Below, in pieces: positions 5,998 through 51,420 of a DNA stretch of 52,087 bases (position 1 is the first letter of the stretch; every line of letters starts with the position of its first letter). The notes beneath the pieces are model-generated. The model did no database searches. It had not been told where the DNA came from and saw nothing but the letters and a program-made list of their open reading frames with translations. The position numbers were made by a program, and so were the translations under genes. The DNA comes from Candidatus Borkfalkia faecavium (GTDB taxonomy: Bacteria > Bacillota > Clostridia > Christensenellales > Borkfalkiaceae), in contig DXEW01000008.1 of NCBI GenBank assembly GCA_019114755.1, positions 1 through 52,087 on the forward strand. Reading direction: 5' to 3'.

Positions 5998-6022
5998 TAT
6001 GCGCCGCGCAGTACTGTGCAAA
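5998..6022 (+). repeat. AGTACT double-dyad repeat, copy 1 (diverged)
   Basis: 17 of 25 bases match the perfect copy at 51396-51420. The left arm is changed to TATGCG...CGCGCA, keeping most of the dyad symmetry, and the right dyad is GCGCAGTACTGTGC. It lies 60 bp beyond the stop codon of the ZIP gene. Confidence 0.6.
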
Positions 6023-6081
6023 GGCGCATTTTTTGCGTTCAATTCCCTGTTTTAAGCAGAAACAGCTAATTTTCAGCCGAT

Positions 6082-6885
6082 TCAGCCGAGAAACACGTCT
6101 AAGAACATCATCAGGGCAAAGCCGCCCGCGATGCCCAAAAGCGCCCCGCTCTTCCCCTCCTGCATACAGGCGGGGACCAGCTCCGCGCACGAGACGGCGA
6201 TCATCGCCCCCGCCGAAAAGGCCAGCGCCCACGGCAGCAGCGACGAGATCAGCCCCACCGCCAGCGCCCCGAGCACGCCCGCGAACACCTCGACGATGCC
6301 CGAAAGCTGCCCCCAAAAGAAGGCTTTGCCCGCCGAGAACCCCTGCCCGCGCAACGGCACCGCCACGCACAGCCCTTCGGGGAAGTTCTGGATACCGATG
6401 CCGACGGCGAGCATGACGGCGGAGACCAGCGCCCCCGCCTCACCGCAGGCGGAGCCGAAGGCGACGCCGACGGCAAACCCCTCGGGGATGTTGTGCAGCG
6501 TCATCGCAAAACAGGTAAGTGCGCCCCGCCGTTTATTTTCTTCCGCGTACGCCTCGCGCCCTTCCAAAAACCTGCCCGAAAGGAAGATGAACAGCGCCCC
6601 CGCCAAAAAGCCCGCCGCGAGCACGGCGCCCTCTTTCCAGGCAGGGCTGCCTTCCAGCCATTCGGCAGCGGGCAAAAGGAGCGAGAAAAAGCTCGCCGCC
6701 ACCATGATCCCCGCGGCGCCGCCTTGCATGGCGTTGAGCACCTTGGGGCTGCACCGCCCGCTCACCAGCGAAAACGCCGCCCCTGCCGCCGTCATGCCGT
6801 ATGTAAACAGAGTCGCCAACAGCGCCTGCCTCCACGCGGGCAGGCTCATCAACCAAGCCAAACCGTTTTTCCTCCGTGCATTCAC
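6082..6885 (-). CDS. ZIP-family divalent metal transporter
   Basis: This 267-residue integral membrane protein has about eight hydrophobic segments. The two ZIP metal-site motifs are present: HNIPEGFAVG in the fourth helix region (about 130-140) and QNFPEGL in the fifth (about 165-171); the second has Gln where many ZupT proteins have His. ZIP proteins import Zn, Fe or Mn into the cytosol; which metal cannot be told. A charged loop (EGREAYAEENKRR) precedes the first motif. The start at 6885 has GGGAG three bases upstream. It stands alone between the SRP RNA terminator and the zinc-ribbon gene, with its own terminator at 5956-5983. Confidence 0.9.
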   Translation of the reverse strand: MNARRKNGLAWLMSLPAWRQALLATLFTYGMTAAGAAFSLVSGRCSPKVLNAMQGGAAGIMVAASFFSLLLPAAEWLEGSPAWKEGAVLAAGFLAGALFIFLSGRFLEGREAYAEENKRRGALTCFAMTLHNIPEGFAVGVAFGSACGEAGALVSAVMLAVGIGIQNFPEGLCVAVPLRGQGFSAGKAFFWGQLSGIVEVFAGVLGALAVGLISSLLPWALAFSAGAMIAVSCAELVPACMQEGKSGALLGIAGGFALMMFLDVFLG

Positions 6886-6974
6886 TCCCTATCATCATAT
6901 GCACAGGCCGCCGCCCCTGTGCGGGGCGGGATACAGCCAAAAGCCGCCGCCCACAAGGCGCCGGGAATCAAGGA

Positions 6975-7038
6975 CAAAAGAAAAGGCGGGCCGCAAAGGC
7001 CCGCCGCGCAGAGACGGCAGGCCGCAAAGCCTGCCGTC
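6975..7038 (-). terminator. Double hairpin terminator of the rpoD-trmK-nif3 unit
   Basis: On the minus strand a first hairpin (7013-7038, GACGGCAGG with CCTGCCGTC) is followed by a second (6985-7005, GGCGGGCC with GGCCCGCC) and then TTTTCTTTT (6975-6984). The second is a strong intrinsic terminator. Confidence 0.82.
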
Positions 7039-7045
7039 TATATGT

Positions 7046-7747
7046 TTATTTCCGTTTGAAGAGGATGCGGCGGCAGCTGTCACATTCGATGAAGGTGCCG
7101 TCCGAAAGTTTTGCCTGTTCGGCGATGGAAAGCTCCATGCCGCACTGCGGGCAGCGGTTGGAAGAGACCTCGCACACGACGGGGAACAGCTTTTCCTTCC
7201 GCTTGGCGGTGTACTTGGCGAGCGTGTCTTTGGGCACGTCTTTGGCGAGCACAGCCAGCTCGTCTTCCAGCTTTTTGATCTCGTCCGCGTGCGCTTCCTT
7301 GATCTCGGCATAGCGCACCTTGTACTCCTTGTACTGCTTCTGCATGGCGATGGTCTGCTTTTTCGCCGCCTGGTATTCGGCAGACGCGCTCTCGATCTGC
7401 GAGACGAGGCGGTTGATCTCCGCCTTCAGGGCGCGCAGGCTGTCGGAGATCTGCGAGGCGCTCTTTTTATAGAAGGAGATCTCGCCCCCCTGCTCGTCCA
7501 CCATTTCGTCCAAATTTTCGTAATCTTTGATGGTATCGGCGATCTCGGCGTATTTCTTTTCCAGCCGCTCGAAGGCGCGCTTGAACTCCGCCGCACGCGC
7601 GTCCAGCGCGTCCAGCTTTTCGGGCGCCTTTTCCAAAAATTTGCGGGCGGTGACATACTTTTTCCGCTCCTCCGTGGAAGCGATCCCCTGTTCCACCGCG
7701 CGCAGGCGTCCGTCCGCCTCCTGATACCGCAACAATTCGTCTATCAT
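7046..7747 (-). CDS. Coiled-coil protein with C4 zinc ribbon (zf-RING_7 / DUF164 type)
   Basis: The 233-residue protein starts at MIDELLRYQEADG, chosen because GGAGG lies seven bases upstream; a longer reading frame has no such site. Residues about 10-175 are heptad-rich, Glu/Lys-rich coiled coil, and the C-terminus holds CPQC (about 205) and CDSC (about 226), a four-cysteine zinc ribbon. This architecture is common beside nif3 in Firmicutes and Actinobacteria and is proposed to bind nucleic acid, but its role is not established. It lies 17 bp after nif3. Confidence 0.88.
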   Translation of the reverse strand: MIDELLRYQEADGRLRAVEQGIASTEERKKYVTARKFLEKAPEKLDALDARAAEFKRAFERLEKKYAEIADTIKDYENLDEMVDEQGGEISFYKKSASQISDSLRALKAEINRLVSQIESASAEYQAAKKQTIAMQKQYKEYKVRYAEIKEAHADEIKKLEDELAVLAKDVPKDTLAKYTAKRKEKLFPVVCEVSSNRCPQCGMELSIAEQAKLSDGTFIECDSCRRILFKRK

Positions 7748-7764
7748 GATAAAACCTCCGCCCC

Positions 7765-8547
7765 TCAGAGCATGCACGCATCCGTGTGGTATGCGCTCGG
7801 CACGCCGAGTTCATCCCTGAGGGTTTGATATATTTTCCAAAAACCGTAGTTTTCGCTGGCATAATGGGTCAGCTGTACGACGGCGATGCCCGATTCGAGG
7901 GCGTCGCAGATAAAATTATGCTTGATGTCTGCCGACACGATGACCTGCGCCCCGCAGCGCTTTGCCGCGGCGATGGCGCCCGCGTCGACGCCCGCCCCGC
8001 AAAAAGAGGCGGCTGTTTCGATCGTTTTATTCTCATCCCCATATATTAAGGCGCGCTTTGCGCCCAACTTTTCCTGCAAGGACGAAGCGAAGGCGGAGAG
8101 CTTTTTGGCGGGAACTTGGAACACGCGGCCGTAGCCGCCGCCCTGCAGCCGCTCGACGATCTGCGTCTCCTTCGCGCCCGCAGCTTCGGCGAGGCTCTCG
8201 TCGATGCCGCCCGCGGCGCAGTCCATGTTCAGGTGCATGGAGATGACGCCGATGCCGCCCCGCACCGCCCGCAACAACCGCGCGCCGAGCGCGTCGCCCT
8301 GCCGCAGCGAAGAGACGGGGAAAAAGATGGCGGGATGATGGGTGACGAGCAGGTTATATCCCGCTTTCTCCGCCGCCTCGATGGCGGCCATGGAAAAATC
8401 GAGCGAGAACACTGCCCCCGTGACCTCGCCTGCGCAGTCGATGAGGATACCGCTGTTGTCGTGCCCGCCGTACGCGGCGATGTAGTCGTCGCTCAATTTT
8501 TTGGGATAGCGGGCGTCTATCTTTTCATAAAGTTCCGAAAGCTGCAT
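7765..8547 (-). CDS. Nif3-like dinuclear metal-centre protein (YqfO family)
   Basis: The 260-residue protein has the Nif3 metal-binding pattern: THHPAIF (about 68-74), HLNMDC (about 104-109) and a late histidine-acidic cluster (THYASE). The fold binds two metals and forms hexameric rings; some relatives have GTP cyclohydrolase-like activity, but the cellular function is unsettled. The start at 8547 (MQLSELYEKID) lies inside the 3' end of trmK, a 23-bp overlap pointing to coupled translation, as in other Firmicutes where trmK-nif3 form a pair. Confidence 0.9.
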   Translation of the reverse strand: MQLSELYEKIDARYPKKLSDDYIAAYGGHDNSGILIDCAGEVTGAVFSLDFSMAAIEAAEKAGYNLLVTHHPAIFFPVSSLRQGDALGARLLRAVRGGIGVISMHLNMDCAAGGIDESLAEAAGAKETQIVERLQGGGYGRVFQVPAKKLSAFASSLQEKLGAKRALIYGDENKTIETAASFCGAGVDAGAIAAAKRCGAQVIVSADIKHNFICDALESGIAVVQLTHYASENYGFWKIYQTLRDELGVPSAYHTDACML

Positions 8548-9190
8548 GCAATGCCTCCTCCAGCCGCCGCAGGCGTTCCTGCAAGGCGGCGCGGCTTGCG
8601 TCCGCCTTTTCAAGCCTGCCGCGGGCGTTTTCTATCTCCCCCCGCAAAAACCGATCGAAATCGGGCAAAGGGGCGTGGATATTGTCGTAGCCGAATTCCA
8701 GTTCCAAACTGCCGTAAGCGCGCGGCGGCGCGCCGCGCTCTGCCCGCAGCAGGTCGTAGTGCTTCGGCCCGTCGTAAAACAGGAAGTCGCGCACGAGGCA
8801 ATAGCCCTTTTCCAACAGGAATGCGCGCACCTTCTCCGTATTTTTCATCGGCTGCAATACGAGGGCCTGCGGCAGAAAGCTGCCTTCCAGGATCTTGACG
8901 ATCTCTTCCCCGCCCATCCCCGCGATCAGCACCTGGTCGCAGTTACAGGGAACCTGCGACAGCCCCGCGCAGCACACGCTCTCCACCCTGCCTTCGGCTA
9001 TGTAGGAAGAAAGAAGTTCTTCCGCCTTGTGCAGGCTGCTCCGGCTGATGTCGGAAATGACCGCCCGGCGGCACAGCCCGCGCTCGAGCGCGTACAGGGT
9101 GCAGTATCCGTGGTCGCAGCCGACGTCGGCAAGCGTATCGCAGGGGGAAAGTTGGCCGCAGACCGTCTGCAGCCGCTTGGTGCGCTTCAT
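8525..9190 (-). CDS. trmK: tRNA (adenine(22)-N1)-methyltransferase
   Basis: This 221-residue protein is a class I SAM-dependent methyltransferase. LADVGCDHGY (about 20-29) is motif I and VLIAGMGGEEI (about 87-97) the TrmK hallmark loop. The family methylates N1 of A22 in tRNA. A C-terminal helical segment (about 165-221) matches the TrmK coiled-coil domain. It follows rpoD by 3 bp and overlaps nif3, the standard arrangement. Length is normal for the family. Confidence 0.92.
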   Translation of the reverse strand: MKRTKRLQTVCGQLSPCDTLADVGCDHGYCTLYALERGLCRRAVISDISRSSLHKAEELLSSYIAEGRVESVCCAGLSQVPCNCDQVLIAGMGGEEIVKILEGSFLPQALVLQPMKNTEKVRAFLLEKGYCLVRDFLFYDGPKHYDLLRAERGAPPRAYGSLELEFGYDNIHAPLPDFDRFLRGEIENARGRLEKADASRAALQERLRRLEEALHAAFGTL

Positions 9191-9193
9191 GGC

Positions 9194-10249
9194 TCAGTCG
9201 AGAAAGTCTTTCAGCTTTTTGCTGCGCGAAGGGTGGCGCAGTTTGCGCAGCGCCTTCGCCTCGATCTGGCGGATGCGCTCACGGGTGACGTTGAATTCCC
9301 TGCCCACCTCTTCCAAGGTGCGCGGTTTGCCGTCGTCGATGCCGTAACGCAGGCGCAGCACCTTCTCTTCGCGCGGGGTCAGCGTATCCAGCACGCCCAA
9401 AAGCTGTTCTTTGAGCATGGTAAAGGCGACGGAATCGGAGGGCGTGGTGGCGCGGTCGTCTTCGATGAAATCGCCCAGGTGCGAGTCTTCCTCTTCGCCG
9501 ATGGGCGTCTCCAAAGAGACGGGATCCTGGGCGATCTTCTGGATCTCGCGCACCCGCTCGACGGGCATGTTCAGCTCTCTGGCGATCTCGTCGGGCGTGG
9601 GCTCCCTGCCCAGCTGCTGCAGCAGCACGCGCGAGGCGCGGGTGAGGCGGTTGATGGTCTCTACCATGTGCACGGGGATGCGGATGGTGCGCGCCTGGTC
9701 GGCGATGGCGCGGGTGATCGCCTGGCGGATCCACCACGTGGCGTAGGTGGAAAATTTGAAGCCCTTCTGATAATCGAACTTTTCCACAGCCTTCATCAGG
9801 CCCAGGTTGCCCTCCTGGATGAGGTCCAAAAACAGCATGCCGCGGCCCACATAGCGCTTGGCGATGGAGACGACCAGGCGCAGGTTGGCCTCGGAAAGGC
9901 GCTTTTTGGCTGCCTCGTCTCCTTCCTGCATGCGGCGCGCCAGCTCGACCTCTTCGTCTACTGACAAGAGGGGCACGCGGCCGATGTCTTTGAGGTACAT
10001 TTTGACGGGGTCGTCGAGGCCGATATCTTTGAGCGCCTGTTCGAACAGCTCGCGGTCGCGCTCGTCTTCATCGACGATCTGGATGCCCGCCTCGCCGATC
10101 GATTTATAGATATAGTCGATCTGGTCGGGGCTGGTATCGATCTTTTCGAGGATATCGCACAGCACGTTGGTGGAGATGCTGCCCTTCTGGCGGTATTCGC
10201 TGATGATCTGCTTCAAAATTTCGTTGAGTTTTTGTTCGGAAACACCCAT
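9194..10249 (-). CDS. rpoD: Primary RNA polymerase sigma factor (sigma-A / RpoD)
   Basis: The 351-residue protein contains region 1.1 (about 1-60), region 1.2 ([17 protein letters not shown]), region 2 with [13 protein letters not shown] (2.3-2.4) and region 4 with [22 protein letters not shown] at the C-terminus. It directs transcription of housekeeping promoters; those found in this window fit its TTGACA/TATAAT preference with 16-17 bp spacing. It lies 26 bp behind dnaG. GGAGG stands 14 bases before the ATG. Confidence 0.97.
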
Positions 10250-10275
10250 AAATGGCTTTATGTCCTCCGCTTATG

Positions 10276-12054
10276 TTAAAAATTTTTCAGTTGAACGGTC
10301 AATTCGCCGATGCGGCGCACGATTTCGCGCTTTTTTGCGATGTCAGGCTCGGCGTCGCAGCGGGCGCTGAGCTCTTTCAGCTCCGCTTCGGCGTCTGCGC
10401 GGCGGATGGTGCGCAGGCAGTCTTCAAAATAGCGCGCGCCCCCTTCGCCCAAAAGGCTCTCGCCGATGCTCAGGTTGAGTATCTCGTCCAGTTCGGGCGT
10501 GTTTTCTTCAAAAATATCGAAAAGCGCGCTGGCACGGACGGGTTCTCCCTTCTCTTTTTGTCCGAGAATATAGCCGGCGATGGTATTATGCACGGGATCG
10601 CTGAATCTGACACCCGAAAGGTCGAAGTTTTTCGCATATTTGGCGCCGAACAGCACCGAGGCGAGGATAAAGCGCTTGGCCTTGACCAGCCTGTCCGCGC
10701 CGTCTTCGTGCAGCAGCGGCTCTGCCGCCCGCTCGGCGCGCGGGCGCTCCGGCTCGTTTTCGAGGTCGCGCCGCAGCGACTCGTAGGTCATGCCCGTCTG
10801 GTCGTGCAGCTTTTTCAACAGATCCTCTTTGACGCTCTCGCTCTCCGCTTCCGCGATCACTTTCAGCGCCGCGGCGATGTAGCCCCGCCGCTCTTCTGTC
10901 TTGGAAAGATCGAATTCACGCCGCGCCACTTCCATCTTGAAGTCGATAAGAGGCATCGCCGCGTCCAGGCAGCTTTGGTAGCCCGCATGGCCGCTTCTTT
11001 TGATGACGTCGTCCGGGTCCAGCCCTTCGGGCAGCGGCACCACGCGCACGTTGACCTGCTCGTCGCGCAGGATCTCCAATCCGCGGATGGCGCCCTTCTG
11101 CCCCGCGAAGTCGCCGTCGTAACTGATATATACGTTGTCGGTATAGCGCTTGCACAGGCGCGCCTGGTCTTTGGTGAGCGCCGTGCCCATGCTGGCGCAT
11201 ACGTTTTCAAACCCCGCCTGATAGAGGGAGATGGTGTCCATATATCCCTCGACGATGATGAGGTCTTTCAGCCCCGACGCCGTCTTCAGCTTTTTGACGA
11301 GGTTGATGTTATATAAGTTTTTGCTCTTGTTGAACACCATCGTCTCGCGCGTGTTCTTGTATTTGGCAAAGTCCGTCTTTTCCAGCACCCTGCCGCCGAA
11401 GGCGACCACGTCGCCGAGAGCGTTGATGACGGGAAAGATCAGCCTGCCGCCCTGCGCGTCGATCAGCCGCCCGCTGCCGCTCGCCTCCACCACGGCGCCG
11501 CTGTCGAGGATGTCGTCGCGGCGGAAGCCCTTGTCCAGCAAAAACTGCGGCAGGCTCTTAAAGTCGAGCGAAGCGCCCAGGCCGAACTTGCGCACCACGC
11601 GGGCGTCGATCTTCCTGTCCAATATATATTGGACGTGCGCGTCGGCGCGGCCGGAATTGAGGTTGTCCAGATAAAAGCGGGCGGAGGTGCGGAGGATGTT
11701 CAGGACGGCGTCTCGCTTGCGCTTTTGTTCTGCCGTCTTTTCGGTATCGAAGTTCATTTCGGGAACGGGGATCTTTGCCCGTTCGGCGAGGATGCGCACG
11801 GCGTCCATGAAGTCGACCGACTCGATCTCCTGCACGAATTTGATCACGTCGCCGGAGGCGTGGCAACCGAAGCAGTAATAAAACTGCGCGTCCGCGTTGA
11901 CGGTGAAGGAAGGCGTCTTTTCATGATGAAAGGGACAGCACCCCCACCAGCGGTCGCCCTTGCGCTCGAGCGGCACATACGCGCCCGCAACTTCGACGAG
12001 GTCGTTTTTGTTTTTCAAAAGCTGCAAAAAAGCAGGATCCAAACCCTTTGCCAT
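10276..12054 (-). CDS. dnaG: DNA primase
   Basis: 592 residues. An N-terminal CHC2 zinc ribbon (CCPFHHEKTPSF, then CFGC, about 38-65) is followed by the DnaG catalytic core (RLIFPVINALGDVVAFGGR) and the TOPRIM domain (IVEGYMD about 258, YDGDFAGQKG). The C-terminal 150 residues would contact DnaB. It makes RNA primers at the replication fork. The start at 12054 (MAKGLDPAF) is preferred because GGAG lies five bases upstream; a GTG two codons earlier is less likely. An intrinsic terminator separates it from the dGTPase gene, so it may have its own unseen promoter. Confidence 0.96.
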   Translation of the reverse strand: MAKGLDPAFLQLLKNKNDLVEVAGAYVPLERKGDRWWGCCPFHHEKTPSFTVNADAQFYYCFGCHASGDVIKFVQEIESVDFMDAVRILAERAKIPVPEMNFDTEKTAEQKRKRDAVLNILRTSARFYLDNLNSGRADAHVQYILDRKIDARVVRKFGLGASLDFKSLPQFLLDKGFRRDDILDSGAVVEASGSGRLIDAQGGRLIFPVINALGDVVAFGGRVLEKTDFAKYKNTRETMVFNKSKNLYNINLVKKLKTASGLKDLIIVEGYMDTISLYQAGFENVCASMGTALTKDQARLCKRYTDNVYISYDGDFAGQKGAIRGLEILRDEQVNVRVVPLPEGLDPDDVIKRSGHAGYQSCLDAAMPLIDFKMEVARREFDLSKTEERRGYIAAALKVIAEAESESVKEDLLKKLHDQTGMTYESLRRDLENEPERPRAERAAEPLLHEDGADRLVKAKRFILASVLFGAKYAKNFDLSGVRFSDPVHNTIAGYILGQKEKGEPVRASALFDIFEENTPELDEILNLSIGESLLGEGGARYFEDCLRTIRRADAEAELKELSARCDAEPDIAKKREIVRRIGELTVQLKNF

Positions 12055-13340: not shown

Positions 13341-14054
13341 TTAGATCAAGCATCCGCCGTTGACGCGAAGTACTTCGCCTGTCATAAACCGCTGCTTCGC
13401 CAAAAACAGCACCGCCTCCGCCACCTCCGCGGGCGTGCCCGCGCGCGCCGGCGGCAGCGCGGAACAAAACTCCGCCTTGGCCTCCGCCGAAAGGCATGCC
13501 GTCATGTCGGTATCCACCATGCCGGGAGAGACGCAGTTGACGCGGATATCGGAAGGGCCGAGCTCCTTCGCCGCGGCCTTGGTAAGCCCGATCAGCGCCG
13601 CTTTAGAGGCGGAATAGCCGACCTCGCACGAGCCGCCCGTCTCGCCCCACACGGAGGCGACGTTGACGATGCTCCCCTCGCCCCTTGCCAAAAATTTGCC
13701 GATCGCCTCGCGCATGCAGTAAAAGGCGCCCTCGACATTGACGGCGAATAAACGGCGAAGTATGTCAGGCGTAGTACTCTGCATATCGCCGTAAAACGCG
13801 ATACCGGCGTTGTTTACGAGCACGGAAAGGCCGAAGATCTGCCCGAACATGGCGCGGACGGCGGCGGCGTCGGAGACGTCGCAGCGGAAGGCGAGCGCCC
13901 CTGCCCCCGCCTCTTGGATGCGGCGCACGGTTTCACGTGCACCCGCCTCGTCTTTTGTATAGGTGAAGGCGACGTCGTACCCTGCGCGCGCAAAGGCGGC
14001 GCAGATCTCCCTGCCGATGCCGCGCGAGCCGCCCGTGATCAGCGCCGTGCTCAT
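13341..14054 (-). CDS. SDR-family oxidoreductase (FabG-like)
   Basis: The 237-residue Rossmann-fold protein has TGGSRGIG (about 7-14), NNAG (about 84-87), a catalytic Ser in VASVWG, YSASK (about 148-152) and the SDR end motif TGEVLRVNGG. It reduces or oxidises a carbonyl with NAD(P)H. FabG (3-oxoacyl-ACP reductase) is the closest familiar family, but position matters: it overlaps the 3' end of aroK by 4 bp and is the last gene of the shikimate operon, with no other fatty-acid gene nearby. Two stretches of its coding sequence match the dispersed AGTACT repeat (13362-13386 and 13761-13785). Confidence 0.88.
   Translation of the reverse strand: MSTALITGGSRGIGREICAAFARAGYDVAFTYTKDEAGARETVRRIQEAGAGALAFRCDVSDAAAVRAMFGQIFGLSVLVNNAGIAFYGDMQSTTPDILRRLFAVNVEGAFYCMREAIGKFLARGEGSIVNVASVWGETGGSCEVGYSASKAALIGLTKAAAKELGPSDIRVNCVSPGMVDTDMTACLSAEAKAEFCSALPPARAGTPAEVAEAVLFLAKQRFMTGEVLRVNGGCLI
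13362..13386 (-). repeat. AGTACT repeat-like sequence inside the SDR gene (weak)
   Basis: 17 of 25 matches, with a perfect 14-bp palindrome GCGAAGTACTTCGC (13365-13378). It encodes the conserved SDR motif TGEVLR, so the resemblance could be chance. Confidence 0.3.
13761..13785 (+). repeat. AGTACT double-dyad repeat inside the SDR gene
   Basis: 21 of 25 bases match the perfect copy, antisense to the SDR reading frame. It encodes the MQSTTPDI stretch, a surface region between strand and helix in SDR proteins. Confidence 0.6.
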
Positions 14055-15004: not shown

Positions 15005-15029
15005 TATGCCTGGCATAGTACTTTGCTAA
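15005..15029 (+). repeat. AGTACT double-dyad repeat overlapping the aroE stop codon
   Basis: 21 of 25 matches. The left half TATGCCTGGCATA is a perfect dyad although two arm positions differ from the TATGTCAGACATA form, a compensated change. The aroE stop codon (15026-15028, minus) lies inside it. Confidence 0.8.
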
Positions 15030-15836: not shown

Positions 15837-17075
15837 CTAATTCAACATGGAAAAGAACTGCGGGAAGGAGATGGCGACGCACTCTTCCCCTTCGATCTGA
15901 CCGCCGTTTGTACTGGCTGCCAGCGCCACGGCGCCGCTCATGGCGATGCGGTGATCGCCGCACGAGCGCACGGTGCCGCCCGCAAGCGAGCGCTTGCCGC
16001 GGATGACAAAGCCGTCCGGCCGCTCTTCGATCTCGCCGCCGACGGCGCGGATCATCTCCGCCGTGGTGCGGATGCGGTCGCTCTCTTTGACGCGCAGCTC
16101 TTCCGCGCCCGCAATGACGCTTTCACCCTCTGCCAAGGCGCACAGCACGGCGATGACGGGGAGCTCGTCGATGAGCGACGGGATATCTTCCCGCCCCACC
16201 GTCAAAGCGCGCAGGGGCGAGCGGAACGTGCGGATATCCGCCACCGGCTCGCCGCACACCTGCCGCTCGTTCTCTAAGCGGTAGCGCACACCCATGCGGT
16301 CGAACACGCGCAGGATGCCCGTCCGCGTGGGATTGACGCCCACGCCGAGGCAAAGCGTTTCGCCGCGCAGCGCGCCCAGCGCCATGAAGTAAGCGGCGCT
16401 GGAAATGTCGGCGGGAACGGCGATATCCGCCGCATGCAGAGTACTATGTCTGACATAGATCGCGCCATCTTCCCTGCGGATGTCCGCGCCCATGGCCGCA
16501 AGCATGCGCTCTGTATGGTCGCGCGAGAGCAGCGGTTCGCGGACGGCGGTCTCCCCTTCCGCAAACAGCGCCGCCAACAACAGGGCGCTTTTGACCTGCG
16601 CGCTGGCGACTTTGGTATCCACTTCGCAGCCGATAAGGCGGGACGCCGTAACGCGCACGGGCGCATGGCCTTCACAGGTCTCGATCTTTGCGCCAAGCCT
16701 CCGCAGCGGCTGCGCCACGCGCTCCATCGGGCGCCCGGAGAGGGACTCGTCGCCTCGCAGGGTGACGTCTGCCCCGCAGCCGGCCGCCAGCCCCATCAAC
16801 AGGCGCATGGTGGTGCCGCTGTTGCCGCAGTAACAGTCGGCGCCGTGCGGCCGCGAAGTTCCGCGCACGCAGATCTCTCCCTCGCCGACGGTGACGTCGG
16901 CGCCCAGGGCGCGCATACAGGCGGCCGTGGAGAGACAGTCTTCGCCGAGCAGGGCGTTGGTGATGCGCGCCTCGCCCTCGGCGATGCCGTTGAACATGAT
17001 GGCGCGGTGGGTGATCGATTTATCGCCGGGGATAGCAAAGCTGCCCTCAAACGAGCAGCGGGGACGTATTTTCAT
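15837..17075 (-). CDS. aroA: 3-phosphoshikimate 1-carboxyvinyltransferase (EPSP synthase)
   Basis: 412 residues in two inside-out alpha/beta domains. IPGDKSITHRA near residue 17 is the phosphate-binding loop; GNSGTTMRLLMG (about 85-96) the phosphoenolpyruvate site; LRVKESDRI (about 335) and CGDHRIAMS (about 375) complete it. It joins PEP to shikimate-3-phosphate. The ATG at 17075 shares ATGA with the aroB stop; a TTG two codons upstream is less likely. A close copy of the dispersed AGTACT repeat lies in frame at 16433-16457 and encodes YVRHSTLHA. Confidence 0.95.
   Translation of the reverse strand: MKIRPRCSFEGSFAIPGDKSITHRAIMFNGIAEGEARITNALLGEDCLSTAACMRALGADVTVGEGEICVRGTSRPHGADCYCGNSGTTMRLLMGLAAGCGADVTLRGDESLSGRPMERVAQPLRRLGAKIETCEGHAPVRVTASRLIGCEVDTKVASAQVKSALLLAALFAEGETAVREPLLSRDHTERMLAAMGADIRREDGAIYVRHSTLHAADIAVPADISSAAYFMALGALRGETLCLGVGVNPTRTGILRVFDRMGVRYRLENERQVCGEPVADIRTFRSPLRALTVGREDIPSLIDELPVIAVLCALAEGESVIAGAEELRVKESDRIRTTAEMIRAVGGEIEERPDGFVIRGKRSLAGGTVRSCGDHRIAMSGAVALAASTNGGQIEGEECVAISFPQFFSMLN
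16433..16457 (-). repeat. AGTACT double-dyad repeat inside aroA
   Basis: 22 of 25 matches in the sense direction of aroA, with the perfect left dyad TATGTCAGACATA. It is read through in frame as part of EPSP synthase. Confidence 0.7.
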
Positions 17076-18135: not shown

Positions 18136-19266
18136 TCAGGGCAGCAGCTCGTAGCGTTCTTTGACTTCGCGCATGTTATCGCCGCCCAGGCGTTCCAATA
18201 CCTTTTGCGCCAGGGCGAAGCAGACGGTGCTTTCGACCACGACCTCGCAGGCGCAGATGGCGCAGACGTCGCTGCGCTCGGTGGCGGCGCGGCAGGCCTC
18301 ACCGGTGACGAAATCGACGGTGTCCAGCCCGCGCATCAGCGTGGGGATGGGCTTCATCGCCGCGCGCAGCACGATCTCTTCTCCGTTGGACATGCCGCCC
18401 TCGATGCCGCCGGCGTTGTTGGTCTTGCGGACGTACTTGCCATTTTCCAAATAGATCTCGTCGTGCACGCGGCTGCCGCGGCGCATCGCCGCCGCAAAGC
18501 CGAGGCCGAACTCGACCCCCTTGATCGCCTGGATGCCCATCACGGCGCCCGCCAGGTGCCCGTCCAGCTTGCCGCCGTAGCTCATGCAGCTGCCGAAGCC
18601 GCTCTTCAGACCGCGCACGCGCACCTCGACGATGCCGCCGGCGGTATCTTTGTCCTCTTTGATGGCGTCGATGGCGTCCATCGCCCGCTTGCATAGTACT
18701 TCGTCAGGCATAAACAGCGGCGACTGTTTGACGTTTTGCAGCTGTTCGGCCGTATATTCTTTCTCGTCTGCAACGCCCGCCACGGCGCGCACATATCCGT
18801 ACACTTCCACGCCCAGCTCGCGCAAAAACATCCGCGCCAGCGTCCCTGCCGCCACGCGCACCGCCGTCTCGCGTGCGGAAGCGCGCTCCAAAATGTTGCG
18901 CGCGTCCGTCTGGTCGTATTTGAGGATGCCGGAGAGGTCGGCATGCCCCGGGCGCACGCGCGTCAGGCGACGCGCCGAAACGTCTGCCCCGTAGGGCGAC
19001 ATGTACGCCTCCCAGTTGGCGTAGTCTTTATTTTCCACCAGCAGACAGACGGGGCTGCCCAGCGTCTTTTGGTCGCGGACGCCCGCCAAGATCTGCACTT
19101 TGTCCGTCTCGATCTTCTGGCGCGCGCCCCTGCCGTACCCGCCCTGGCGCAGGGCGAGATAGTTATCTATCTCTTGCGTATCGACGTGCAGGTTCGCAGG
19201 CAGGCCTTCAACGATGGCCGTGAGCGCCCTGCCGTGCGATTCTCCGCTCGTGCTCCATTGCAGCAT
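18136..19266 (-). CDS. aroC: Chorismate synthase
   Basis: 376 residues. TSGESHGRALTAIVEG (about 5-20), GRGARQKIETDKV and RPGHADLSGILKYDQTDARNILERASARETA (about 105-135) are the FMN/EPSP-binding signatures, and GVEFGLGFAAA follows. It forms chorismate from EPSP using reduced flavin. It is the first aro gene of the series, 5 bp after a ComEC-like gene, so the aro genes are probably transcribed from upstream. A diverged dispersed repeat (18688-18712) encodes MPDEVLC in a variable segment. Confidence 0.95.
   Translation of the reverse strand: MLQWSTSGESHGRALTAIVEGLPANLHVDTQEIDNYLALRQGGYGRGARQKIETDKVQILAGVRDQKTLGSPVCLLVENKDYANWEAYMSPYGADVSARRLTRVRPGHADLSGILKYDQTDARNILERASARETAVRVAAGTLARMFLRELGVEVYGYVRAVAGVADEKEYTAEQLQNVKQSPLFMPDEVLCKRAMDAIDAIKEDKDTAGGIVEVRVRGLKSGFGSCMSYGGKLDGHLAGAVMGIQAIKGVEFGLGFAAAMRRGSRVHDEIYLENGKYVRKTNNAGGIEGGMSNGEEIVLRAAMKPIPTLMRGLDTVDFVTGEACRAATERSDVCAICACEVVVESTVCFALAQKVLERLGGDNMREVKERYELLP
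18688..18712 (-). repeat. AGTACT double-dyad repeat inside aroC
   Basis: 19 of 25 matches in the sense direction of aroC. It falls in a variable loop of chorismate synthase, upstream of the conserved KEDKDTAGGIVEV stretch. Confidence 0.5.
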
Positions 19267-28966: not shown

Positions 28967-28991
28967 TATGCCAGACATAGTACTTCGCAAA
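28967..28991 (+). repeat. AGTACT double-dyad repeat downstream of the ACT gene
   Basis: 23 of 25 matches. It lies 44 bp beyond the ACT-protein stop codon, next to the terminator of that gene. Confidence 0.82.
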
Positions 28992-35385: not shown

Positions 35386-35410
35386 TTTGCAAAGTACTTT
35401 GTCAGGCATA
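35386..35410 (-). repeat. AGTACT double-dyad repeat downstream of galM
   Basis: 22 of 25 matches, sense to galM. The right dyad is extended to a perfect 12-bp palindrome CAAAGTACTTTG. It is 12 bp after the galM stop and precedes the terminator. Confidence 0.8.
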
Positions 35411-36641: not shown

Positions 36642-36642
36642 T

Positions 36643-38399: not shown

Positions 38400-38479
38400 T
38401 GATTTGAAAGCAAATTTTTTGAAAAATTTTTTCAGGCGTTTCCCGAACGGAACGGAACAAAACGGCGCACACTATCCAT

Positions 38480-40930: not shown

Positions 40931-40955
40931 TATGTGTGACACAGTACTCTGCTTA
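40931..40955 (+). repeat. AGTACT double-dyad repeat overlapping the pyrF stop codon
   Basis: 19 of 25 matches. The pyrF stop codon (40953-40955, minus) is its last three bases. The left dyad arms read TATGTG/GACACA, still mostly complementary. Confidence 0.7.
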
Positions 40956-42541: not shown

Positions 42542-42566
42542 TCTGTCTGACATAGTACTTTGCAAA
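42542..42566 (+). repeat. AGTACT double-dyad repeat between pyrC and pyrE
   Basis: 23 of 25 matches. It ends 5 bp before the pyrC stop codon and lies 12 bp upstream of the pyrE start, filling the gap. Confidence 0.85.
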
Positions 42567-46317: not shown

Positions 46318-46486
46318 GCGTTTGCGCCGCCGTGCGCGCATTTTTTGCCCGTATTTTTCGCCGCGCATAGTTCTCCGCGTCGCACAGATGCAGGCTCTCG
46401 CGGCAGCGTTCGCACAGCCCCGCCGCCCCCGCGCGTTCCCCGCACACGACGCAGCGGCTTTCGCGTTCATCTTCCCCTTTTTGCAT
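46295..46486 (-). CDS. Small four-to-five-cysteine zinc-finger-like protein
   Basis: 63 residues. CVVC (about 12-15) and CERC (about 25-28) form a likely zinc ribbon or knuckle, with a fifth Cys near 35. The rest is charged and basic. CAGGGGGTG lies upstream of the ATG with normal spacing, which supports translation. I do not recognise the family. It is between the phosphoesterase and a Cys-rich protein gene with its own terminator. Confidence 0.6.
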   Translation of the reverse strand: MQKGEDERESRCVVCGERAGAAGLCERCRESLHLCDAENYARRKIRAKNARTAAQTLPNADDL

Positions 46487-46513
46487 CGTTCACCCCCTGT
46501 TTTCGGGCAGATC

Positions 46514-46548
46514 AAAAAGCCGATACGCTCGGCGGCATACCGGCTTTT
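46514..46548 (-). terminator. Terminator of the Cys-rich protein gene
   Basis: AAAAAGCCG...CGGCTTTT (46514-46548) forms a long imperfect stem; on the minus strand TTTTTGAT follows. It is 16 bp after the stop codon. Confidence 0.7.
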
Positions 46549-46564
46549 CCCTGCGATGAGCGCA

Positions 46565-47236
46565 CTATTTGCCGCAGCCGTTCCCGCAGCCGCCCGTATT
46601 CCCCTGCGGATACAGAGGCAGCTCAAAAAATCCGGCGCATACTTCCTGCGTATATTCCTGCGCGGGCGGGATGACGCAATAACCGTACGAGGGCACGAGC
46701 AGGTCGACGTTGATGACGATCTTCAAAATGACGGTGAAGCAAAGATCGACCGTGAACGTATTGTCCTGCGCGTTGAACGTGCCCTCCGGCGCGACGGCGC
46801 TCACGACGCACTGCACCTCATACGGCATGATGGAGGGCTGGGGCACGAACAGGATGACGTCCTCGCCGATCGATACGACCGCGCTCGCCTTCCCCTCCAC
46901 GCCGTTTGCATCGGTATAGACGACCTCGACAGGGATATCGACGGATGCCTGCACGCGTGCGCAGTTGGCGCGGTCGGGCAGGCGGTCGACCTGGAACGCC
47001 GTCACGGTGCCCGCCGACGTCGTGCTGCGGGCGCTGATAAAGGTCAACGGATATGTAGGGTTGGCGGGGACGGGGTCGACGATGCCGAGCACCACGCCGC
47101 TGCGCTGGCCCTGACGGATGCAGGCGTCAAATACCCGCTGCGCCTGCAGGCAGACTTTTTCGTTCAGCCCGCTGCTCGGATTGCCGCAGATGGGTCCGGG
47201 ACACTTATCCGTCTGGAAATTCGAATAAAAGGACAT
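46565..47236 (-). CDS. Uncharacterised Cys-rich protein with NEKVC motif
   Basis: 223 residues, about ten cysteines. It opens with KCPGPICGNPSSGLNEKVC, has several beta-rich stretches (VDIPVEVVYTDANG, DVILFVPQPSIMPYEVQ, VILKIVINVDLLVPSYGY) and ends GGCGNGCGK. No signal peptide or membrane segment is evident. Related NEKxC proteins occur in spore-forming Clostridia and I suspect a coat or envelope role, which the adjacent LysM and SpoVB-like genes also suggest. This is not established. It starts 5 bases after GGAGG. Confidence 0.75.
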   Translation of the reverse strand: MSFYSNFQTDKCPGPICGNPSSGLNEKVCLQAQRVFDACIRQGQRSGVVLGIVDPVPANPTYPLTFISARSTTSAGTVTAFQVDRLPDRANCARVQASVDIPVEVVYTDANGVEGKASAVVSIGEDVILFVPQPSIMPYEVQCVVSAVAPEGTFNAQDNTFTVDLCFTVILKIVINVDLLVPSYGYCVIPPAQEYTQEVCAGFFELPLYPQGNTGGCGNGCGK

Positions 47237-47392
47237 GATTGACCTCCGGATGGTAGAATTGCGGACGAGCGCAGGGGTTGCCCTGTACGCTCTCCATGTT
47301 CCAATATATGATTTTTACACCCGCGGTTGCTACACGCCGCCGCCTCGCCAATCGTTTCGCCGTCCGCCTTGCCAATACCTTGCCGCCCGCGG

Positions 47393-47737
47393 CTACACGC
47401 GCTCCGTCCCGCCGCTCGCTTCGCCCTCCGCCCCGCCGAGGCAAACGCGCTGCGTCGGGTACAGAACGGGACCGTTCCGCCGAAGAAATTCGGCGCGGTC
47501 CGCGGAAAAACGGGCGCAGATGCTCTCCGCCGTATCGCCCGGGCGGACGGTATAGACGCGCTCGCGCGGCGGCAGGCACAGCAGGCTGCCGGGCGGCGGA
47601 AATTTTTGCAGGCGATTGACCGCGATCAGCGAAGCGTACGCCGCCCCCTGCGCCGCGCATACGGACGCGAGCGTATCGCCGTCGCGGACGACGTACCAAC
47701 CGAACGGACCGGGAACGCAGTCTTGCAAAAGGAACAT
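47393..47737 (-). CDS. Protein with two LysM domains
   Basis: 114 residues made of two LysM repeats: YVVRDGDTLASVCAAQGAAY (about 14-33 onward) and YTVRPGDTAESICARFSADR (about 62-81 onward). LysM binds peptidoglycan or related N-acetylglucosamine polymers. There is no signal sequence, so it may act in spore coat/cortex assembly from the mother cell, like SafA-type proteins. GGGGGTGAGCAC lies before the ATG at 47737. It is divergent from the SpoVB-like gene. Confidence 0.82.
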   Translation of the reverse strand: MFLLQDCVPGPFGWYVVRDGDTLASVCAAQGAAYASLIAVNRLQKFPPPGSLLCLPPRERVYTVRPGDTAESICARFSADRAEFLRRNGPVLYPTQRVCLGGAEGEASGGTERV

Positions 47738-47798
47738 GTGCTCACCCCCTTTTCGTTCATGATATGCGCCGCGCCGCAAAATATGCGGGACGGGCCGC

Positions 47799-47827
47799 TC
47801 ATATTCCGCACGGCAAGGCGATATATA
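47799..47827 (+). promoter_or_regulatory. Possible sigma-E type sporulation promoter of the SpoVB-like gene
   Basis: TCATATT (47799-47805), 14-bp spacer, GATATATA (47820-47827) resembles the Bacillus sigma-E consensus (KMATATT, N14-15, CATACANT). A good sigma-A pair is not seen in this gap. Confidence 0.45.
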
Positions 47828-47871
47828 TAGGGAAGGACCGGGCGGCCGCAGGCCGCCCACGCGAGGGTACT

Positions 47872-49371
47872 TTGAGCAAGAGCAATCTCTATCAGACGGC
47901 CGCCTATGTGACGGCATTTTCCGTCGCCGAGAAGTTTTTCGGCTTCCTCTATCGCATCATCCTCTCCCGCACGCTCGGCGCCGAAGGCATGGGCATCTAT
48001 CAGGTCGCCCTGTCCGTCTTTGCCGTCCTCGCGACGGCGGCGGCTTCCGGGATCCCGCTGACCGTCTCGCGGCTGATCACCAAATACCGCGCGCAGAAAA
48101 ACAGCCGCGCACAGCACTCCGTCGTCACGGCGGCGCTTCTGTCCGCGCTCTGCTTTTCCGTCCCCGTGTTCTGCATCCTGTTTTTCGGGCACAAGGCGTT
48201 TGATTTTTTATTTTCCGACCCGCGCTGCATGACCGTCCTGCTCATCCTGCTCCCGAGCCTAACGTTCAATTCCGTCTACTCCGTCCTCCGCGGCGAACTT
48301 TGGGGGAACAAGCGCTTTGTCCCGTACTGCGTCATCGACCTCATCGAAGAGCTGTGCATGATCGGCGCGGGCGTTCTGCTCGTGACGCACATGAGCGACC
48401 TGTTCGACGGCGCCAGGCGCGTCGCGCTGGCCGTCGTCTTTTCCTATCTCGTATCCTTCACCCTTTCGGTCGCCTACTTCTTTATCAAGGGCGGAAAGCT
48501 GCGCGACCCGCGCGGCCAGCTGCGCCCCCTCCTCGCGTCCGCGCTGCCGATCACGGGGATGCGGACTTCCGGTTCGCTCATCAACTCCGCGATCTCCCTG
48601 CTCCTCCCGGCGCGCCTGATCGCGGCGGGATTTACGTCCGAACAGGCCATGAGCGAGATCGGCATCGCGATGGGGATGAGCATGCCCATCCTGTCCATCC
48701 CCTCCACGCTGATCGGCTCGCTCGCCCTCGTCATGATCCCCGAACTTGCCGAAAATTTTTTCCGCGGCGACCATACAAAATTGCGTGAAAATATTGAAAA
48801 GGCGCTCAAAGTCACCTCGCTCATCGCCTGCCTGCTGATCCCACCGCTGTTCGCTTTGGGGAAAGATATCGGCATCCTGCTCTTTTCCAGCGAACACGGC
48901 GGCGAGATCATCCGCAACTGCTGCTTCATGCTTTTCCCCATGAGTTTGGGCATGATCTCCAACAGCATCCTCCATTCGCTCGGCTGCGAAAAACAGACGT
49001 GCGCCTATTTCTTTGTCGGCGCGGCGGCGACCCTCGTATGCGTCTGGTTCCTGCCCGGACTGGTCGGGATCTATGCGCTGATGATCGGGCTCGCCGCAAG
49101 CCAAGTCATCACGACCCTGCTCAACCTTCGCCTCATCGCCAAAAAGAGCAAAGAAAAAGTGCGCTTTTGCAAGCACACTCTCCTCTCCGCCGTCAGTATC
49201 CCTCCGGCGATCGTATTCGGTTGTCTGTTGCGCAACGTGCTTTCCGCCCTTCTGCCGCCGCTCGCGGCGATCGCCCTCTGCGGCGGGATCCTCGTTATCG
49301 CGCAGGGGCTGCTCCTCGCCGTCATCGGCCTCGCGCAGCCGCGCTGGGTGCGCGTCCTCGTGCGGCGATGA
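47872..49371 (+). CDS. SpoVB/MurJ-like polysaccharide flippase
   Basis: 499 residues with about 12-14 hydrophobic helices of the MVF/MATE-like lipid flippase family. SNLYQTAAYVTAFSV and RIILSRTLGAEGMGIYQ near the N-terminus are typical of SpoVB-type proteins, which flip lipid-linked precursors for spore cortex. The start is a TTG at 47872 with GAGGG just upstream; earlier in-frame codons encode atypical residues. Its stop abuts the folT stop with no gap. A sigma-E-like promoter lies upstream. Confidence 0.87.
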   Translation: MSKSNLYQTAAYVTAFSVAEKFFGFLYRIILSRTLGAEGMGIYQVALSVFAVLATAAASGIPLTVSRLITKYRAQKNSRAQHSVVTAALLSALCFSVPVFCILFFGHKAFDFLFSDPRCMTVLLILLPSLTFNSVYSVLRGELWGNKRFVPYCVIDLIEELCMIGAGVLLVTHMSDLFDGARRVALAVVFSYLVSFTLSVAYFFIKGGKLRDPRGQLRPLLASALPITGMRTSGSLINSAISLLLPARLIAAGFTSEQAMSEIGIAMGMSMPILSIPSTLIGSLALVMIPELAENFFRGDHTKLRENIEKALKVTSLIACLLIPPLFALGKDIGILLFSSEHGGEIIRNCCFMLFPMSLGMISNSILHSLGCEKQTCAYFFVGAAATLVCVWFLPGLVGIYALMIGLAASQVITTLLNLRLIAKKSKEKVRFCKHTLLSAVSIPPAIVFGCLLRNVLSALLPPLAAIALCGGILVIAQGLLLAVIGLAQPRWVRVLVRR

Positions 49372-49935
49372 TCAGTATTTTCGCTTGAACTTTGCGCAGA
49401 AAGGCAGCGCGGCGAGGCAGAGGGCGACATTGACGACATAGACGATCGACTGGATGGACAGCCGCCCGGCGAGGTAGACCCAAAAAGTCTTTTGCGCCGT
49501 TCCGCCCCAAAGAAAGATATACGCGTACGAATACTGCACCAGCGTGTTCAAGAAACAGGTGATGACGATAAAGCCGACCGCAAAGGCGAGGATCGCCTTG
49601 CCGAACAGCCACCCCGCATCTTCGCGCTTGATCCCGTTCATGATCCAGCCCGTCAAAAAGCCGAACAGGCCGAGCGTCAGCCCGTACAGCCAATAGACGT
49701 CGACCGGGCTGATGAGAAAGCCGATCGCGTCGCCGATAAATCCGACCAGAAAGGCCGGGACGGGGCCGAGCAGATATCCCGCCAAAAAGCTGACGGTATA
49801 GGTGAACGCGATCTTGTTCGACGCGGAAAGCTCGACGCCGAGCACGGAGTTCGCCGCGACGCTCAGAGCGATGAAGATCGCGAGATAGGCGATCTGCTTG
49901 CTCATGGAAAAGGAACGAAAAGCCTTCGAGAACAT
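49372..49935 (-). CDS. folT: Folate-specific ECF transporter S component
   Basis: 187 residues with six hydrophobic helices. The N-terminal region (IAYLAIFIALSVAANSVLG) has the small-residue pattern used to dock the EcfT coupling protein, and VGFIGDAIGFLI is typical of FolT. The THF riboswitch upstream supports folate as substrate. The shared energising module (EcfA, A', T) is not in the window. The start at 49935 follows GGGAGG by 8 bases. It is convergent with and directly abutting the SpoVB-like gene. Confidence 0.9.
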   Translation of the reverse strand: MFSKAFRSFSMSKQIAYLAIFIALSVAANSVLGVELSASNKIAFTYTVSFLAGYLLGPVPAFLVGFIGDAIGFLISPVDVYWLYGLTLGLFGFLTGWIMNGIKREDAGWLFGKAILAFAVGFIVITCFLNTLVQYSYAYIFLWGGTAQKTFWVYLAGRLSIQSIVYVVNVALCLAALPFCAKFKRKY

Positions 49936-49969
49936 GGAAAAAACCTCCCTGATCCGGAGAGGTCCGTGA

Positions 49970-50098
49970 AAAAACAGTGCGCCGAGCGCTCGGCGGCTAT
50001 CCTTGCAACGGACGCGCTTCGGCACCGCAGGGAAACCCCTTTCGTTTGCGAACAACGTCCCGTTTCGCAACACTTAACGCGCCTCAGCTACTCTGCAT
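49970..50098 (-). promoter_or_regulatory. Tetrahydrofolate (THF) riboswitch with expression platform
   Basis: On the minus strand GCAGAGTAG (50090-50096 region) and GCGTTAAGTG (about 50074-50083) match the conserved THF aptamer core, followed by GGGACGTTGT, GGTGCCGAAGCGC and the closing GTTGC (about 50003-50007), which pairs with the 5' strand. A GC palindrome (CGCCGAGC/GCTCGGCG, 49980-49995) then CACTGTTTTTT is a probable terminator. Folate binding should reduce folT expression. Confidence 0.9.
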
Positions 50099-50111
50099 TT
50101 AATATGAGACC

Positions 50112-50140
50112 ATTATACACTTTCTTTTTGCGTTTGGCAA
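50112..50140 (-). promoter_or_regulatory. Promoter of the THF riboswitch-folT transcript
   Basis: Minus strand TTGCCA (50135-50140), 17-bp spacer, TATAAT (50112-50117). Confidence 0.9.
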
Positions 50141-50307
50141 GCGTACGGGCGGGGAAAAAGGATAAACGCAAAAGTTTTTCAAAGCCCGCGCGGACCGCCC
50201 TCCTTTTGCCCGCCCTCCCGGCAGGCAGATCGGATACATGCAGCGATTTTTGAAAGGCGCCGCCGCCCGGACGGCATACTTTTGCCGCTTTGCCGCATAC
50301 TGACGGC

Positions 50308-51000
50308 ATGGGCCTCATCTTTTTGCGGACGACGATCATCTTCATCGCGCTGCTTGCCGTGATGCGGCTGATGGGCAAGCGGCAGATCGGGGAGATGCAG
50401 CCGTTCGAATTTGTCATCACGCTGCTGATCGCCGAGCTCGCCTGCATCCCGATGGCGGATATTTCGATCCCGCTGCTGTACGGCGTCGCATCCGTCGTGA
50501 CCATCTTTTTCCTGCACCAGCTCCTCCTTTTGTTCGACCTGCAATGCAAGCCGTTCAAGGCGGTCGTGGGAGGCAAACCCTCCGTCGTCATCAACAAAAA
50601 CGGGATCGATATCTCGCAGTTAAAGCGCAACCATCTCGATTTGTCCGACCTGATCGAATCCATGCGTTCCGCCGGATATTTTTCGCTCGACGAAGTCGCC
50701 TACGCGCTGTATGAATCGAGCGGGCAGTTCACCGCCATGCCGCGCGAGGACGCCCCGCGCGAAGAAAAGGTCTCCCTGCCCGTCGTCATCATCGACGACG
50801 GAAAATACGACCAGAAAAACCTCGCGCTGACAAAGACGGGGCGGGCGTATTTTGAACGCATCCTGCGCGAGCAGCACATACGGAGCGCGCGCAGCGTCTT
50901 TGTCCTGACGCTGGACGGGACGGGCAAGATCTATCTGCAATGTCGGGGCGAGCGTTACCGCGCCTTCCGCGTCTGTCTGCCGGAGGGAAGCGAATGGTAA
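50308..51000 (+). CDS. DUF421 membrane protein (YetF/YkjA-like)
   Basis: 230 residues. Three N-terminal hydrophobic segments (about 2-85) include RLMGKRQIGEMQPFEFVITLLIAEL (about 20-44, given in part), the DUF421 hallmark; the soluble rest has the GGKPSVVINKNGID and DLIESMRSAGYFSL motifs of the YetF domain. Relatives are linked to spore membrane structure and germination proteins (SpoVA 2Duf group); function is not settled. It couples with the next gene by a 7-bp overlap. A preceding TTG at 50290 is a possible alternative start; no strong ribosome binding site is seen. Confidence 0.88.
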   Translation: MGLIFLRTTIIFIALLAVMRLMGKRQIGEMQPFEFVITLLIAELACIPMADISIPLLYGVASVVTIFFLHQLLLLFDLQCKPFKAVVGGKPSVVINKNGIDISQLKRNHLDLSDLIESMRSAGYFSLDEVAYALYESSGQFTAMPREDAPREEKVSLPVVIIDDGKYDQKNLALTKTGRAYFERILREQHIRSARSVFVLTLDGTGKIYLQCRGERYRAFRVCLPEGSEW

Positions 51001-51371
51001 AGACCTTCGTATCCATGCTGCTCAGCCTCGCCCTCCTTGTGTCGGCGGCGCTGTTCGAGCACTTTTATATCGGCGGAACTTTCGAAAAATTTGACGCCGC
51101 GCTCGTCGCCCTCGAATGCAAGGTGCGCGAGGAGGTCGCTTCGCGCGAGGACGCCGAAGCCGTGCGCGCTTTATGGCTGGCCGATAAAAAGGACCTGCAC
51201 GCCGTGATCCCGCACAACGACATCGCGCAGGTCGACTATTGGCTGGGCGAGGCGGTCAGCTGTATTGAAACGCGCGCCTATACCGACGCTTTGGCAAAAC
51301 TCGAAGTCTTGCAGACGATCTGCCGCCAGATCCCGATGACTTACAAGATCACGTTTGAAAACGTGTTTTGA
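50994..51371 (+). CDS. DUF4363 family protein
   Basis: 125 residues. One N-terminal membrane anchor (about 4-22, FVSMLLSLALLVSAALF) precedes a helical outer region (DAALVALECKVREEV, DYWLGEAVSCIE). DUF4363 genes almost always follow a DUF421 gene in Clostridia; the role of the pair is unknown. GGAGGG stands six bases before the ATG at 50994, inside the end of the DUF421 gene. Confidence 0.85.
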   Translation: MVKTFVSMLLSLALLVSAALFEHFYIGGTFEKFDAALVALECKVREEVASREDAEAVRALWLADKKDLHAVIPHNDIAQVDYWLGEAVSCIETRAYTDALAKLEVLQTICRQIPMTYKITFENVF

Positions 51372-51395
51372 CGAATACTACAATTTTTATCGTTT

Positions 51396-51420
51396 TATGT
51401 CAGACATAGTACTTTGCAAA
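51396..51420 (+). repeat. AGTACT double-dyad repeat, reference copy
   Basis: The left half TATGTCAGACATA is a perfect 6-1-6 dyad and the right half reads CATAGTACTTTGCAAA; all other copies are scored against it. It is 24 bp after the DUF4363 stop and next to the shared terminator. Confidence 0.85.

Follow-up and report, generated by a model that had tools for sequence, protein, structure and literature searches.

A dispersed, A/T-phased AGTACT repeat in Candidatus Borkfalkia and a candidate membrane-anchored PadR-family protein that may bind it

The AGTACT repeat in the window and its distribution

Contig DXEW01000008.1 of Candidatus Borkfalkia faecavium (assembly GCA_019114755.1; contig C37 of our genome G000, 1.73 Mb in 38 contigs), analysed over its whole length of 52,087 nucleotides and referred to here as the window, carries a dispersed repeat of about 25 bp centred on AGTACT (Table 1). 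Genes were called with a simple ad hoc gene caller, and their names in the window are based on Pfam matches for ten proteins. In the window, 14 AGTACT words were counted, compared with a mean of 1.91 and a largest count of 5 in 100 dinucleotide shuffles. As claimed in a preliminary description of this DNA, 11 of the 14 lie in the context of the repeat, and all eleven copies are located exactly where it had placed them. They score 18.7 to 38.7 with a 25-bp position weight matrix (PWM); two further window matches above 11, at 38416 (11.9) and 46357 (14.4), are probably due to chance.

Table 1. Copies of the repeat in the window, and loci in which TATGCGCAAAACACGGCTTTTACGCATA-like inverted repeats were seen
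Feature	Position	Strand	PWM score	Location
Diverged copy	5998..6022	+	21.6	gap between two minus-strand genes
Weak copy	13362..13386	-	18.7	within short-chain dehydrogenase gene (13341-14054, minus; Pfam adh_short_C2)
Strong copy	13761..13785	+	33.8	within short-chain dehydrogenase gene 13341-14054
Strong copy	15005..15029	+	36.1	gap between shikimate dehydrogenase and dehydroquinase II genes
Strong copy	16433..16457	-	34.2	within EPSP synthase gene (15837-17075)
Copy	18688..18712	-	27.1	within chorismate synthase gene (18136-19266)
Strong copy	28967..28991	+	36.8	intergenic, adjoins terminator-like inverted repeat
Strong copy	35386..35410	-	34.9	12 bp off the 3' end of aldose epimerase gene
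Copy	40931..40955	+	29.4	3' end of OMP decarboxylase gene
Strong copy	42542..42566	+	33.2	between dihydroorotase-like and phosphoribosyltransferase genes, 12 bp 5' of the latter
Top-scoring window copy	51396..51420	+	38.7	convergent gap
TATGCGCAAAACACGGCTTTTACGCATA-like inverted repeats (by eye)	L371, L372, L374-L379, L381

A genome-wide search for excess copies, proposed in the preliminary description, returned 88 core sites in the source genome (53 forward and 35 reverse matches to TATGYSNSRCATAGTACT at no more than one mismatch), compared with 0 for the reversed pattern used as a control. The 24 same-genus genomes sampled contain 4-105 copies, and 16 genomes from other families of the order contain 0 or 1. 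In our family sample of 121 genomes, at least three copies are found in 45, which belong to the genera labelled g1, g21, g24, g26 and g27, plus two in g19. Like the source assembly, all these genomes are fragmented. A scan of named contigs yielded at least 119 stretches with matches; the 80 matches listed come mostly from uncultured Clostridia, with one each from Candidatus Borkfalkia and Candidatus Gallimonas, and the few among them in Bacteroidales, Lentisphaeria and Saccharibacteria are probably due to chance. An exact core match is also found in 8 viral contigs. Within the source genome, no site scoring 24 or more was detected in three 20-kb stretches (one with a GC content of 0.45) of the 134-kb contig C12.

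Anatomy, origin and orientation of the sites

The core, TATGYSNSRCATAGTACTNYGCAAA, consists of a 13-bp dyad, TATGYSNSRCATA, fused to the AGTACT dyad. The two half-sites of the 13-bp dyad draw near-independently from TC, CC, CG and TG, a free assortment that would be as for a protein dimer and not a hairpin. The claim that changes in the arms keep the symmetry holds only weakly: among 238 sites with intact TATG/CATA (species pooled), weak covariation links positions 4 and 8 (Fisher p = 0.009), whereas none was detected between positions 5 and 7 (p = 0.26). The conserved unit extends beyond 25 bp. Around the core, between about -58 and +96 (~150 bp), the A/T fraction peaks each 10.5 bp, with an amplitude of 0.127 on the left and 0.184 on the right over 271 sites. 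For 200 control sets, each of 220 random intergenic positions, the amplitude averages 0.010 and never exceeds 0.031, and 431 intergenic TATGY words that lack AGTACT give 0.012/0.010. The 51 in-gene sites display similar A/T peaks, weaker at +53. Some copies are arranged in tandem, ~65 bp apart, both in the source genome (G000:C28:44853-44984 and C31:1394/1460) and in G015, a further genome of the family (C1:3257/3321 and C11:15088/15153). A reading of the core as a promoter, with TACTAT as the -10 element, was rejected: the right flank displays no conserved -35 by eye.

Comparison of aligned loci bears on how the sites arise. The chorismate synthase gene has equal length in 30 of 30 aligned loci, without indels, and the site arises by codon changes; AGTACT is present in 5 of the 30 (the window included), with two further near-matches. 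For the EPSP synthase site, AGTACT is found in the window's own locus only, out of 29 aligned, 28 of which are free of indels (L212 has one extra residue). Of the 27 loci that have both aroE and aroQ, 7 (again including the window) carry a site in the gap between them; the gap measures 43-61 bp in these seven loci and ranges from -4 to 185 bp in the other 20.

At a score of at least 24, the stretches taken from the source genome contain 45 sites and the first G015 set contains 55. Intergenic positions account for 33 and 43 of them, respectively, though only ~12.5% of the scored DNA is intergenic (binomial p about 1e-20 and 2e-29). From the named contigs, 148 sites in 119 loci (hereafter, the named loci) were collected, with 2 sites in divergent gaps, 24 in convergent gaps and 30 in genes. 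For some gene families a site recurs 12-48 bp 5' of the start codon, for example in 9 loci of a family that we take to be thrS and, at 12-13 bp, in 6 loci of the phosphoribosyltransferase family, including the window copy at 42542..42566; the OMP decarboxylase gene family has an adjoining site in 4 loci, that of the window included. Another family, presumably miaA, has an in-gene site in 10 loci (L026 and nine others), in each of them oriented against the gene.

Because the GC skew is too weak to establish the direction of replication, the leading strand was inferred from the regional majority gene strand. Of the 54 classified sites of G015, 48 run opposite to this strand, as do all sites in convergent (8/8) and divergent (3/3) gaps. 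In the named loci, once 36 sites with less than 70% of coding DNA on one strand were set aside, 93 of 112 sites lie opposite to the regional leading strand (16:1 in convergent gaps). Where the local gene is discordant to its region, the site follows the region in 6/6 cases in the source genome and G015 together, and in 0/2 cases in the named loci, for which the region is ill-defined at about 8 kb. Furthermore, contigs of G099, G046 and G011 with at least three sites among the matches listed display one-orientation runs (50/55 versus 36.7 expected), and on contig C7 of G015 the site orientation flips along with the gene strand near 60 kb. No sites were found in the 100 kb sampled from the 162-kb dnaA contig C4 of G015; an ori-distal placement of the sites is suggestive only. 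In the G015 stretches L262-L281, GGGNAGGG, which resembles an FtsK-orienting polar sequence (KOPS), is skewed 86:20 on the inferred leading strand, a count uncorrected for gene strand, and the FtsK gamma domain is found in 4/4 genomes. A search for dif with a consensus sequence gave at best 19/28 positions and nothing convincing in the stretches covered. Stretches L262-L281 also contain a CRISPR-like array, marked by words like TGAGGGGT and ATTTCAAT that recur ~80 times on one strand.

A PadR-membrane protein as the candidate binder

Clustering of the genes that flank the sites revealed one family in which all loci (7/7) have a site 54-57 bp 5' of the gene and oriented like it. The PadR domain (PF03551) was detected in 4/4 of its proteins with 68.5-70.9 bits against a cut-off of 27 (E about 1e-19), and the nearest solved structures in phmmer searches are PadR proteins (1xma, 1e-25). 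The predicted architecture of this PadR-membrane protein comprises an N-terminal PadR winged helix, a variable stalk of ~200-600 residues and about four C-terminal membrane helices. By eye, the stalk is coiled-coil-like in some members; in g1 it is acidic and probably disordered. Four C-terminal hydrophobic segments are present in 33 of 35 uncut sequences, with three in L280 (G015) and five in L345; three further sequences, that of the source genome among them, end at the locus border. An AlphaFold2 model built on 21 homologues headed by the G015 protein places a winged helix at residues ~21-122 and a helical bundle at 553-687, with a stalk of low confidence between them (mean predicted local distance difference test score, pLDDT, of 56; about 85 in the bundle). 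Its best matches in PDB are PadR proteins, with Clostridioides difficile PadR1 (5dym) at rank 33.

The promoter region of the padR-membrane gene was scanned in 39 loci, 37 of them distinct; L352 is cut at the contig edge, leaving 36, and L349 and L354 were counted after correction of the gene start. A site is located 5' of the TTGAC-TANNNT promoter in 36/36 distinct loci with the region covered, from four genera, and the source genome has a double site at this position. In L339, L344, L336 and L354 the PWM gives the near-palindromic dyad a better score in reverse. Site and promoter are 1-3 bp apart in 17/37 loci (L335 repeats L081), and the remaining distances are mostly 11-13 or 32-35 bp, with 26, 43 and 56 bp also found; their clustering about one helical turn apart suggests that the two lie on one helix face. 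In g19, double sites like TATATCTGACA-AAGTATTACT-ATGTCAGACA are found by eye between promoter and start in 4 of 6 stretches. Six stretches from g18, g32 and g29 have no matrix match, and those from g23 and g33 have weak ones only. The recognition helix reads QGTFYSAMQRLV in g18 and QGTFYSCLQRIV in g32, compared with QPSLYSALKRLE. As a separate observation, inverted repeats like TATGCGCAAAACACGGCTTTTACGCATA were seen by eye ~200 bp 5' of padR-membrane homologues in g18, g23, g32 and, less well, g29 (Table 1).

Homologues at E <=1e-52, a threshold chosen afterwards, are found in 42 of the 121 family genomes, 40 of which have at least three sites, compared with 5 of the 79 genomes without such a homologue (G056, G065, G073, G113 and G142); these genomes were counted by hand, uncorrected for relatedness. 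Because of the conserved own-promoter site and the phyletic match of homologue and sites, we attribute binding to the PadR-membrane protein, which very probably recognizes the repeat. The dimeric DNA-binding protein at a nucleoid or segregation site, one of the roles suggested in the preliminary description, is supported, and a candidate for it was identified.

According to the accessible part of its description (PMC5050560), C. difficile PadR1 recognizes GTACTAT(N2)ATTATA(N)AGTA in its own promoter, with AGAGTACTATGTATTATTATAGTAAAT as one of the boxes, forms larger complexes on longer DNA and has 200 predicted genomic matches, about half of them in open reading frames or convergent gaps. Our sites resemble this system in the AGTACTATG word, which is present on the reverse strand of the commonest motif form, in the own-promoter site, and in that about half of the predicted matches of PadR1 also lie outside promoter regions. 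By contrast, the core described here is longer, phased and replication-polar, and whereas the PadR1 construct comprises residues 1-109, with no membrane region described for PadR1 in that text, the PadR-membrane protein adds a stalk and membrane helices. PadR1-type half-boxes are found as AGTA in 247/271 sites and as TACT (at -3..0) in 25/271, versus 3.9 expected. Among the titles and abstracts returned from an open-access literature library, none describes the AGTACT-repeat element or the PadR-membrane protein; the earlier statement that no such element has been described is to be qualified in that the AGTACTATG word also occurs in the PadR1 own-promoter box.

Proposed membrane docking and its rivals

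Each copy is a putative binding site of a membrane-anchored PadR-family protein. The ~150 bp of phased A/T should bend the DNA around or along the bound complex; this would either curve it round the complex or bring the site to the apex of a supercoiled loop. We infer that the protein would bind the copy that precedes its own promoter, probably as an autoregulator, and that the other copies, mostly in co-directional gaps, convergent gaps and genes, would mainly not serve promoter regulation. By way of the stalk, the dispersed copies may hold the chromosome at the membrane, with docking sites that tend to share one orientation relative to the replication fork. A tether is the simplest reading, because the candidate reader is membrane-bound and the sites mostly avoid promoters; we hypothesize that membrane docking is the function of the sites, a proposal that could as easily prove wrong as right. 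Noc offers a parallel, as a protein that contacts the membrane as well as binding sites dispersed over the chromosome, although its protein family and site are unrelated and its sites are not known to be polar or phased.

Several observations weigh against this interpretation. The complete PadR1-type TACT-N11-AGTA is found in 16/271 sites only, and the spacing of the canonical PadR operator, ATGT-N8/10-ACAT, is replaced here by ATGT-N3-ACAT (ATGT in 193/271 sites, ACAT in 173/271). Phasing is longer than one PadR dimer requires. G056 (9 sites) and G142 (5) lack a clear homologue, which for G142 is presumed from its absence among the matches listed; conversely, G063 and G087 carry a homologue but have one site each, and no site is found in 1.1 kb around the G063 homologue, whose gene start may lie outside. 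Another factor acting at the promoter site would give the same conservation. Polarity is weak in the source genome, where 27/45 sites lie opposite to the regional strand and the 12 coding sites run 4:8, the reverse of the trend. Avoidance of divergent gaps is less clear in the source-genome and G015 stretches, with 6 sites in 60 divergent versus 14 in 60 convergent gaps. Finally, G000 (88) and G015 (105) stand apart in strict sites from the other 43 genomes with at least three, which have 3-33.

The main rival, which we consider rather unlikely, is an ordinary one-component membrane-bound transcription regulator in the style of CadC and ToxR, the copies being a large regulon that includes sites at gene ends. 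It would explain the clear own-promoter site of the padR-membrane gene and the recurrence of sites 5' of starts in the families with nine and six loci. Yet the named loci have 2/148 sites in divergent gaps as opposed to 24 in convergent gaps and 30 in genes, and orientation follows the region and not the local gene in the 6/6 discordant cases, but not in the two from short named loci. CadC itself has few target sites. As far as the available text goes (PMC6320335), CadC and ToxR are membrane-integrated regulators that likewise have a DNA-binding domain on a membrane protein, with the difference that CadC has one membrane helix. Strong DNA gyrase sites, where ~130-156 bp of DNA with phased A/T arms are wrapped by gyrase, which works in the wake of transcription units, are improbable. 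The 10.5-bp phasing over ~150 bp and the convergent-gap sites do resemble the E. coli gyrase motif and the Mu strong gyrase site, with their ~10.5-bp phased A/T arms over 130-150 bp (accessible part of PMC6379681), and there is a likeness to the 156-bp gyrase loop in what is available of PMC11626157. However, the E. coli motif is degenerate and, within the same portion of PMC6379681, without a specific core of the AGTACT-repeat kind, whereas the AGTACT core is not degenerate. GyrA C-terminal repeats are present in 7/7 genomes tested, two without sites among them; a phase comparison with the annotated Mu gyrase cut site reached at best an r of about 0.24, off the core; and the padR promoter site is left unexplained.

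KOPS, short octamers read by FtsK, have a replication-strand bias, as do architecture-imparting sequences, and our sites share this bias. A polar replication or translocation signal, either KOPS or a fork trap like RTP/Ter, would agree with the replication polarity, the flip on C7 and the absence of sites from the part of C4 sampled; moreover, PadR proteins were found to resemble RTP closely in structure (PMC3506622, in the part available). We nevertheless regard such a signal as unlikely: the core is no FtsK gamma octamer, GGGNAGGG is separately and already skewed in the G015 stretches and the FtsK gamma domain is present, opposite sites are tolerated (18/45 in the source genome), and the stretches covered contain no convincing dif. 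The preliminary description had also named an uptake signal and a mobile hairpin family as possible roles. For DNA uptake, no specific support was obtained, and we consider it very improbable. The sites are dispersed and substitution-born, have A/T tracts beside the core like the Haemophilus uptake signal sequence, and occur with ComEC in 6/6 genomes, but ComEC is common, being found also in the motif-less G025 and in 10/14 control genomes, and uptake leaves both the replication polarity and the padR promoter site unexplained. A mobile hairpin family, of the repetitive extragenic palindrome (REP) or miniature inverted-repeat transposable element (MITE) type, would fit dispersed, palindromic, mostly intergenic copies with some tandem pairs ~65 bp apart. 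It is contradicted at the places tested, by the substitution origin of the two in-gene sites in aro genes and by an aroE-aroQ gap without an insertion footprint; the near-free assortment of half-sites is a further point against it, and this origin appears extremely improbable.

Membrane docking by the PadR-membrane protein could extend to a chromosome-scale, replication-polar membrane-attachment system, in which a stalked transmembrane PadR protein would read up to some hundreds of curved, phased sites. We put this forward as a tentative and rather doubtful possibility. The sites would mostly face the oncoming fork alike, and the ori-distal chromosome would be fixed to the membrane during replication and segregation. 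For all but a few model species, the way in which the bacterial chromosome is attached to the membrane is an open question, and the present case brings together a defined site with 150 bp of phased A/T, polarity with respect to the replication strand and a transmembrane protein as the candidate DNA binder. PadR proteins are small drug-sensing repressors; if the proposed system is real, they can hold a structural role as well.

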